The notes under the pieces: model-generated | Seen by the model: only the letters and a program-made list of their open reading frames with translations | The model's database searches: none | What the model was told of the DNA's origin: nothing | Made by a program: the position numbers and the translations under genes | DNA from: Candidatus Palauibacter rhopaloidicola | Lineage (GTDB): Bacteria; Gemmatimonadota; Gemmatimonadetes; Palauibacterales; Palauibacteraceae | Direction: 5' to 3' | Length of the DNA: 64,000 bases | Assembly (NCBI GenBank): GCA_026914155.1 | Contig: JAPPGH010000008.1 | Coordinates: forward strand, 166,006-230,005 | In this document: in pieces, positions 61,288 to 64,000 of the stretch | Position numbering within the stretch: position 1 is the stretch's first letter | How the letters are laid out: every line of letters begins with the position of its first letter

Positions 61288-62315
61288 AACTCCTGCCGAA
61301 AGCGACGGGCCTTCGCCTGCTCCTCGCCGCCCTCGCCGCCCTCGCTCCGGTGGCATACGGGTTCTTCTCCGCCGAGTTCCGGGGCCGCGGCATTCCCGAT
61401 GGGTCCGTTGTCGAGGTTCTCATCCCGGATGGCGCCACATCGCTCGAGGTCGCGGACACGCTCCGAGCACAGGAACTGATCTTCCATCCCCGCATCTTCG
61501 ACGCGTACGTGCGCCTCAAGGGTCAGGGGCGGCAACTGAAGGCCGGCCGGTACGAGATTCCGCGCGGCGCCCCGTACCCGTACCTGCTGGAGGTGCTCCA
61601 AGCCGGGGCCGTCGTTACGACGCCGCTCACCATCCCGGAGGGTCTTCGGCTCCCGCAGGTGGCGGAACGCCTGGCCGCCTACGTCGGCGATTCGACCGCG
61701 GCCGTCCTTGCCTATCTGACGGCTCCGGAGCGAGTTGGCGAGCTGGGCGTGCCGGGTCCCACGCTCGAGGGATACCTGTTCCCGGAGACGTATCGATTCG
61801 CCGATGGTGTCGGAATCCGGGTCATCGTGCAGGCGATCGTCGGACGATACACGGGTTTCTGGGGAGCCGAGGAGCGAGCCCGGGCCGCCGCGCTCGGTCT
61901 CGACGAGCGCGAGGTCGTAACGCTCGCGAGCATCGTCGAGAAGGAGGTCCGGTGGGACGAGGAGCGTCCGGTGGTCGCGGGGGTCTACTGGAACCGCCTT
62001 CAGCGCGACATGCTGTTGCAGGCGGATCCCACGGTCCAGTACGCCCTCGGCGAACCACGGGCGCGTCTGCTCTACCGCGACATCGACTCCGTCGCGGATC
62101 ACCCCTACAACACCTATACGCAGCCGGGACTGCCGCCCGGGCCCATCGCTTCACCCGGAGCGGCATCGCTACGGGCCGCCCTCCAGCCCGCCGACCACGA
62201 GTACACCTTCTTCGTGGCGCGAAACGACGGCTCGCACGAGTTCACCCGGACCCTGCGCGAGCACAACAACGCGAGAAACCGGATCCGTCTCGACCGCGAG
62301 TCGGCGGAACGGTAG
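61284..62315 (+). CDS. mltG: endolytic transglycosylase MltG (YceG-like)
   Basis: VTLASIVEKEVRWDEERPVVAGVYWNRLQRDMLLQADPTVQYALG, PYNTYTQPGLPPGPIASPGAASLRAAL. Confidence 0.95.
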   Translation: MKLLPKATGLRLLLAALAALAPVAYGFFSAEFRGRGIPDGSVVEVLIPDGATSLEVADTLRAQELIFHPRIFDAYVRLKGQGRQLKAGRYEIPRGAPYPYLLEVLQAGAVVTTPLTIPEGLRLPQVAERLAAYVGDSTAAVLAYLTAPERVGELGVPGPTLEGYLFPETYRFADGVGIRVIVQAIVGRYTGFWGAEERARAAALGLDEREVVTLASIVEKEVRWDEERPVVAGVYWNRLQRDMLLQADPTVQYALGEPRARLLYRDIDSVADHPYNTYTQPGLPPGPIASPGAASLRAALQPADHEYTFFVARNDGSHEFTRTLREHNNARNRIRLDRESAER

Positions 62316-62328
62316 GACGAAAGGGACC

Positions 62329-62985
62329 ATGCCCGGCTCGCCCACATGGGATGGTTGGCCTCTCATGGTGATCACCCTCCCGCAGCCCGCCTGCGGCCGT
62401 CCGCTCGAGCGGGTCGTGGCGGAATGCGTGGACGCCGGGGCGCCGGCGATTCAACTCCGGGACAAGACCGCGGACGCCCGGGCGCTTGCCTCGACCGCCG
62501 AGCGGCTCCGTGCCATCACGAAGTCTGCGGGCGCCACCCTGATCGTGAACGATCGTCTCGATGTCGCCCTCGCCACCGGCGCGGACGGCGTCCACCTCGG
62601 ACCGGACGATCTCACCGTCTCCGCGGCCCGCAACATCGCCCCGCGCGACTTCATCATCGGCTACTCCACCGATGATCCCGTGGAAGCCCGCCGCGCCGCA
62701 GCTGCGGGAGCGGACTACCTGGGCGTCGGCGCCGTGTTCGGTACACGCTCCAAGCCCGGCCTCGCCGACGAAGCCATCGGCCCCGACCGGGTTCGCCTGG
62801 TCCGCGAGGCCAGCCGCCTCCCCTGTCTCGGCATCGGCGGCATCACTCTGCAAAACGCCCGCGAGCTTCTCGATACCGGCGCCGGTATCGCCGTCCTCTC
62901 TGGTGTGATGTCCGCCTCCGACCCCGCCGCGGTCGTGCGAGAGCTTCTTCGCATCGCAGGCGGAGGAGGAGGGTGTCGGCGCTAG
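62329..62985 (+). CDS. thiE: thiamine phosphate synthase
   Basis: AGAPAIQLRDKTADARALAS, LIVNDRLDVALATGADGVHLGPDDL, GADYLGVGAVFGTRSKPG, CLGIGGITLQNA. Confidence 0.94.
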   Translation: MPGSPTWDGWPLMVITLPQPACGRPLERVVAECVDAGAPAIQLRDKTADARALASTAERLRAITKSAGATLIVNDRLDVALATGADGVHLGPDDLTVSAARNIAPRDFIIGYSTDDPVEARRAAAAGADYLGVGAVFGTRSKPGLADEAIGPDRVRLVREASRLPCLGIGGITLQNARELLDTGAGIAVLSGVMSASDPAAVVRELLRIAGGGGGCRR

Positions 62986-63115
62986 CTGGCTGGTGAACGC
63001 CGCGGCCATGCCGAACGGCTGCGGAGCACTCCGTCGCGCGGGCGCGCTGCCGCACGGGGGGCGGGTCGGAGGGCGTTCAAGGCTGGCGCCGGCGCCGACA
63101 CCCCCCTCCTCCGCC
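62959..63115. repeat. hairpin repeat element A: 24-bp terminal inverted repeat enclosing conserved core ends
   Basis: ggcggaggaggagggtgtcggcgc 62959-62982 pairs with 63092-63115 (23/24); contains core halves 62986-63018 and 63060-63090. Confidence 0.85.
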
Positions 63116-63206
63116 GCATCACCGAAGCGCTCACGCTACCGGAAGCTCGCGAGCCCCCACGCACGCCGGCACGGCCATCTGCCATCCCATCGCAGCGGCG
63201 ACGGAT

Positions 63207-63357
63207 GGGAGAGGGGAGGGTGGGCGGTGGCGCCAGCCTTGAACGCCCTCCAACCCGCCGACCCGCGGAGCCGCGGCCCCGCGACGATCATGCACCCCGC
63301 CCGTTCGGCATGGCCGCGGCGTTCACCAGCCAGCCACCGCCCACCCTCTCCTCTCCC
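63207..63357. repeat. hairpin repeat element B: inverted copy of element A's core with a different 25-bp terminal inverted repeat
   Basis: gggagaggggagggtgggcggtggc 63207-63231 pairs with 63333-63357 (24/25); 63301-63333 is the exact reverse complement of 62986-63018; 63229-63259 is the reverse complement of 63060-63090 (30/31). Confidence 0.85.
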
Positions 63358-63376
63358 ACTCCTGCCCCGATGCAGA

Positions 63377-63411
63377 AAACGCCTCGCATCCGCAACGGAC
63401 ACGAGGCGTTT
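63377..63411 (-). terminator. Rho-independent terminator downstream of the 5S rRNA
   Basis: aaacgcctcg 63377-63386 / cgaggcgttt 63402-63411; minus strand ends in GGCGTTTTC. Confidence 0.7.
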
Positions 63412-63422
63412 CCCAAAAAAGT

Positions 63423-63540
63423 CGCCGGCAGCGACCTACTCTCCCAGGGCGTCCCCGCCCAAGTACCATCGGCGCTGAGGGGCTTAACTGCTGGGTTCGG
63501 GATGGGACCAGGTGTTTCCCCCTCGCTAAAGCCGCCGGCA
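63423..63540 (-). rRNA. rrf: 5S ribosomal RNA
   Basis: Minus strand: GCCGGCGGCTTTAGCGAGGGGGAAACACCTGGTCCCATCCCGAACCCAGCAGTTAAGCCCCTCAGCGCCGATGGTACTTGGGCGGGGACGCCCTGGGAGAGTAGGTCGCTGCCGGC. Confidence 0.95.
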
Positions 63541-63617
63541 ATCCGGGATTTGGCTCACGAGTCGAGTGCAGGGCGGTCGAGCGCGCTGAAGCGCTTATCG
63601 ACCTCATATGAAGATAT

Positions 63618-64000
<383 letters not shown>

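Follow-up and report, generated by a model that had tools for sequence, protein, structure and literature searches.

Two hairpin elements of ~155 nt each, here called A and B, face one another in the intergenic region between thiE and the rRNA operon of Candidatus Palauibacter rhopaloidicola. We read them, with a probability of roughly 0.6, as genus-specific, low-copy, BIME-like palindromic interspersed DNA repeats of ~155 bp, found between genes, usually as a composite of ~400 bp and once solo, with arms probably kept complementary by template switching and perhaps by selection. As far as the comparisons made here show, this repeat family is undescribed.

Two facing hairpins between thiE and the rRNA operon

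In the window (the whole 64,000-nt stretch that was analysed) the rRNA operon is convergent with thiE, and the A-B pair lies between them in opposite orientations, as the preliminary description had placed it. On the left, thiE (62329-62985, + strand) runs into the first element: read directly in frame, its TAG stop codon (62983-62985) and its last ~8 codons are inside the left arm of A. In two relatives (G001 and G016), two third-position changes at the end of thiE (CGG CGC to CGC CGG) keep Arg-Arg, and the opposite arm matches. On the right, the operon runs toward the pair on the - strand, with the 23S rRNA gene (63617-64000, cut by the window and the contig end) and, at the operon's end, the 5S rRNA gene (63423-63539). 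A separate short hairpin, AAACGCCTCGCATCCG... (63377-63411, - strand), lies outside the A and B elements; it is conserved beside 5S in relatives and is the probable rrn terminator.

Element A spans 62959-63115 on the + strand and element B 63206-63358 on the - strand, scoring 136.4 bits on + and 149.3 bits on -, respectively, with the covariance model R1, which was itself built with both copies. All parts of A are read on the + strand. A purine-rich 5' outer arm (62959-62986) is followed by the conserved 5' side of an internal loop (TGGCTGGT, 62987-62994) and by the nearly invariant 5' strand of the inner stem, GAACGCC (62995-63001); on the far side come the 3' strand of the inner stem, GGCGTTC (63072-63078), the conserved 3' side of the loop (AAGGCTGGC, 63079-63087) and a pyrimidine-rich 3' outer arm (63088-63115). 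B has the same parts on the - strand, which in its own sense are the 5' outer arm (63333-63358), loop TGGCTGGT (63325-63332), GAACGCC (63318-63324), GGCGTTC (63241-63247), loop AAGGCTGGC (63232-63240) and the 3' outer arm (63206-63231), in which 63219 pairs with 63345. In the spacer between the elements (63116-63205), the B-proximal part alone (CAT-GGCG-CGGG) is recognisably common to both of the loci at which pairs occur.

The outer arms pair over 24 nt in A (62959-62982 with 63092-63115) and 26 nt in B (63206-63231 with 63333-63358), each 96% complementary, in agreement with the single mismatch first noted in each terminal repeat. A and B also form inverted repeats with one another, of 63 nt (86%) and 49 nt (88%). 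The 33-nt segment 62986-63018 of A is the exact reverse complement of 63301-63333; direct reading confirmed this claim of the preliminary description, and its further statements, that the other core ends match at 30/31 and that the middles differ, also hold. The region as a whole, flanks included, does not form a single large inverted repeat. When the full 64 kb was scanned for inverted repeats, the top four pairs were exactly those of A and B, others being shorter or poorer (e.g. 22 nt, 91%), and the structure is not due to chance.

A family confined to one genus

Candidatus Palauibacter is an uncultured, cosmopolitan marine group associated with sponges and corals. Covariance-model matches were found in 12 Palauibacter genomes including the home genome, and in none of the other 27 genera searched, a search whose filters become stricter above 40 genomes. 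The home genome (4.1 Mb in 63 contigs) has the A-B pair only, i.e. 2 copies, and relatives have at most 4 full copies per genome, where thiE-rrn and a second locus hold pairs and one genome (G015) has a solo element. The further copies that had been anticipated are thus present in relatives, as this model search of genus genomes showed, and all of them carry self-complementary flanks, as had also been expected.

We aligned 19 copies from the two loci; the solo copy sits at a third. A core of 91-93 nt with conserved ends is present in 19/19 aligned copies and consists of the near-invariant stem GAACGCC/GGCGTTC, the conserved loop TKGCTGGT/AAGGCTGGC and a variable middle (69-71 nt, measured between the two search motifs), while the outer arms around it are purine-rich on the 5' side and pyrimidine-rich on the 3' side. 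All six complete pairs are head-to-head, with a core-to-core gap of 143-152 nt. At the thiE locus of one relative (L100:52-330, contig C40 of G006) a partial copy is followed immediately by a full copy in direct orientation, the arm of the full copy being compensated differently (CTG/CAG).

A scan of 84,980 species with the two motifs gave ten matches in Gemmatimonadota records, eleven in other taxa and two in viral contigs. The same-genus matches are in Candidatus Palauibacter poriticola and in Gemmatimonadetes/Gemmatimonadales MAGs (the order containing the genus is described in PMC10469786). Arm-complementarity scores were 16.5-27.5 for the Gemmatimonadota matches versus 4.5-7.5 for the rest; we judge the 13 matches outside the genus to be chance because their arms are not complementary, and they are also of variable length. 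Copies are confined to Candidatus Palauibacter. A weak R1 match in G014 (C60:14083-14234) was rejected; it has no core motifs and looks coding.

Arms that change yet stay paired

Over the outer and inner stems of the 19 copies, 94.5% of cells are paired, and 15 pairs show double Watson-Crick changes. Double-change cells number 70, compared with 20 when columns are shuffled, a control that leaves the relatedness among copies in place; the number of pair types apart, the observed covariation values are reached in 0/500 shuffles. When the partner is slid by 1-3 columns, pairing falls to 38-55%. Double Watson-Crick changes are also seen within same-locus orthologue sets, at 11 pairs in A and 9 in B, counts that are inflated where indels shift G006 and the B copy of G007. 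In the B arms, 63219 and 63345 are the only positions at which the sister genomes G000 and G010 differ, and these two form a pair. It is strongly supported that outer stem complementarity is maintained while the sequence changes. The preliminary description had suggested that complementarity is under selection; the kept pairing and covariation stand, and either selection or a mutational process may be their cause.

It had also called the flanking arms of A and B unrelated, which overstates their difference. Aligned in register, their 5' arms match at 17/24 positions versus 9.9 in shuffles, and among five class representatives 10/10 pairs of 5' arms exceed the shuffle mean (p 0 to 0.04); 5' arms average 87% purine. 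This likeness across classes means that the arms belong to the element, and it disfavours the other suggestion made at first, that a small mobile core cassette enters or leaves the apex of existing palindromes, in the manner of attC sites or of an IS within a REP. Such traffic would account for G001, where the arms of the B locus are fused into a near-perfect palindrome with no core, and for G015, where a B-type core lies inside arms matching the A position. However, the G001 junction, read by eye, falls at a short GCCG repeat, as slippage predicts, and takes away some of the inner stem too, so that a deletion explains the apparently empty palindrome; B in G009 and A in G002 were lost by other, non-precise deletions (also read by eye), and the G015 copy is at a contig end. 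Since the purine-rich 5' arms resemble one another beyond chance across all classes, we consider apex insertion very unlikely. In all three genomes with a loss at thiE-rrn (B or A missing in G001, G009 and G002) the genes are retained, and the losses look like slippage deletions.

A second locus and a solo copy

At locus 2 the pair sits upstream of both of two divergent amidohydrolase-like genes (named by eye). The signatures that set the A and B types apart recur there: CAGGCGTTC is in A2 and most A copies, and GAGGGCGTTC in B and B2. From this recurrence, the unit that spread to locus 2 was probably the whole composite; more generally, the dispersed unit is probably the whole element or the A-spacer-B composite and not the core cassette.

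Ten Palauibacter genomes, the home genome among them, have the same two genes but no pair between them. In a pairwise flank alignment, the right flank of filled locus 2 matches the empty site over ~70 nt. Where a short target-site duplication might be seen between filled and empty sites, the flanks show instead a diverged promoter-region repeat, which borders the pair on both sides (26-nt core match). This promoter-like region, with AGCGTAGAT, occurs once on each side of the pair, at L093:1970-2000 and L093:2450-2485. The first codons of the upstream gene differ as well, and a larger rearrangement may therefore have taken place.

The two halves of the G015 solo element are on two contig ends with overlapping sequence, and we infer that they join. 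In that genome (L092:154-3996 with L091, contigs C81 and C64), a TonB-receptor-like gene and the solo element lie between two genes that are neighbours in G000, G006 and G004. In those three genomes the next gene comes immediately after the amidohydrolase gene, which means that either G015 gained the element and the receptor gene or the others lost them. A search for the orthologous empty site of the solo copy gave no readable boundary, and the relatives of the TonB receptor in other species were only ~65% identical.

DNA or RNA

Strong covariation is what a structured RNA would give, if A and B were transcribed (in a 3' UTR or as a small RNA) with a long stem under selection and a conserved internal loop as the binding site of a protein or ligand. 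Besides the very strong covariation, U-G/G-U pairing is possible across the conserved internal loop in the sense strand, and the sense strands at thiE-rrn follow the direction of the adjoining gene, as does the solo copy after the amidohydrolase gene. Selection for an RNA stem on the sense strand should, however, favour G-U over A-C, and the outer stem shows the reverse, with 415 Watson-Crick, 8 G-T and 18 A-C among 456 cells; these counts speak against RNA. The sense strand is the more stable fold in 14/19 copies, but the energy difference between sense and antisense is about the same in composition-matched core shuffles (mean z -0.35), and on neither strand is the core much more foldable than its shuffles (mean z -0.83 sense, -0.53 antisense). 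The shuffle test on the aligned copies thus gave no strand preference for RNA beyond composition. Rfam scans returned 5S and 23S only, A and B matching no described family, and the position of the locus 2 pair upstream of two divergent genes is a poor fit to a 3'-end RNA or a terminator. RNA function of A and B is not supported, and we regard the structured RNA as unlikely.

A related proposal is that the pair marks a transcription boundary, as a bidirectional terminator or insulator that keeps converging transcription out of thiE and the rRNA operon. The convergent setting at thiE-rrn fits, the G015 copy adjoins convergent gene ends, and the predicted hairpins are very stable, mostly about -100 to -124 kcal/mol. 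The pair at locus 2 nevertheless lies between divergent genes, and G001, G009 and G002 miss B or A yet keep the genes. There is no U-tract terminator signature (no intrinsic terminator, as a G+C-rich stem followed by a T run, was found in 62300-63700), and rrn has its own conserved hairpin at 63377-63411. A boundary function of this kind seems to us quite improbable.

What these elements offer is a clean natural case of near-perfect stem covariation whose other features favour DNA over RNA. Pairing covariation, often taken as near-proof of a functional RNA, need not mean RNA, and comparisons of orthologous copies in sister species let one gauge how much of it template switching can produce.

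Proposed upkeep and spread

On the palindromic DNA repeat reading, the hairpin DNA of each element would fold during replication, and one arm would be recopied from its partner by template switching, so that the arms drift yet stay complementary; selection for the hairpin or cruciform may add to this. Such recopying would yield changing but complementary arms, and would also account for swaps of G-C to C-G, for which no G-U intermediate exists. Template switching is documented as a cause of arm homogenisation and of spacer inversion (PMC8604942, PMC8794818). The near-identical inverted cores of A and B may in addition exchange sequence by gene conversion, which would explain the exact 33-nt match in the home genome; in G010 the middle of B carries the CCGAACGGCTGCGGAGCACTCC tract of A, with differences clustered at 63285-63300.

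A mobilising protein, past or still unseen, probably uses or used the invariant ends of the core as its recognition site. A RAYT/Y1 transposase (PF01797) as mover was rejected, since it is absent from the ten carrier genomes searched (G014-G016 lay outside this search); the domain is present only in the non-carriers G003 and G005. A half-site pattern search of 12 genus members found no autonomous element with the same ends, the matches beyond element copies being mainly single-mismatch ones, and two of these matches (G009 C26 and G005 C51) proved on inspection to be unrelated sequence. Once in place, the hairpins would be at most inert or mildly useful boundaries between transcription units, with A supplying the thiE stop codon as well.

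Against the repeat reading weigh the two negative searches for a mover, the locus 2 flanks with their promoter-region repeat in place of a clean target-site duplication, and a copy number that for interspersed repeats is very low. The strong conservation of the core ends from species to species may also reflect selection for a cellular function. On a further reading the elements would be a new class of selected hairpin, with a stem free in sequence but paired, shown to a protein via the invariant loop TKGCTGGT/AAGGCTGGC and GAACGCC/GGCGTTC, and used at Palauibacter gene boundaries, among them the rRNA operon's end; we hold this as a tentative and rather doubtful view.

Comparison with known repeats

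The closest likeness is to REP/BIME repeats, which are likewise palindromic, intergenic, arranged in close inverted pairs, lineage-specific and possibly non-autonomous mobile DNA (PMC2817692, PMC3733652). The arrangement in close pairs of opposite orientation is shared by 6/6 complete Palauibacter pairs, all head-to-head. REPs are, however, 20-40 nt long against ~155 nt here, usually exceed 100 copies per genome against the 2-4 found in Palauibacter, and have a cognate RAYT, whereas the ten Palauibacter carriers searched have none. The unpaired GTAG or CGTC tag at one end, by which the REP superfamilies are named (PMC2817692, PMC3733652), has no shared counterpart at the feet of the aligned copies inspected. 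Covarying arms around a conserved internal loop further distinguish the Palauibacter element. It is therefore filed as a palindromic interspersed repeat and not as a member of the REP family, from which it departs in size, tag, copy number and RAYT.

Terminal inverted repeats like those of MITEs are present in the Palauibacter elements. Larger intergenic palindromes, ERIC and Correia/NEMIS-type MITEs among them, are imperfect palindromes of ~100-160 bp, interspersed and gene-free, that can overlap gene ends. Going by their descriptions, they are set apart by high copy number and sequence-conserved arms, whereas Palauibacter arms vary by locus and species yet remain complementary. Integron attC sites, too, are palindromic but imperfectly so, with end motifs that are conserved and a middle that varies, but their GTTRRRY/RYYYAAC pair is not seen at the element ends. 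Quasipalindromes that act as template-switch hotspots (PMC8604942, PMC8794818) resemble the elements in arms that are homogenised while drifting and in multi-base compensatory changes; that process, however, is a mutational one at hairpins generally, while the Palauibacter elements are a defined repeat family with a conserved core.

Hairpins and assembly

Many contigs end inside an element (in G006, G008, G011, G015 and G016, and C15 and C71 of G007), and one such end, in G008, looks scrambled, as if the palindromes were artefacts of metagenome assembly. Yet the complete pair lies inside contigs of separate assemblies (G000, G010, G014 twice, G007 and G004), with species-specific compensated arms, and an artefact is extremely improbable. 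At the thiE-proximal site of G015 (L106:1-150, contig C77), a reversed B-type core lies in A-position arms and thiE runs to a TGA inside the core; this contig end may be an assembly product. The contig ends inside elements suggest that long hairpins break short-read assemblies, and such elements are probably undercounted in metagenomes. L089, L090, L091, L092, L100, L101, L104, L105 and L106 all end in this way, including at loci with no rRNA nearby.
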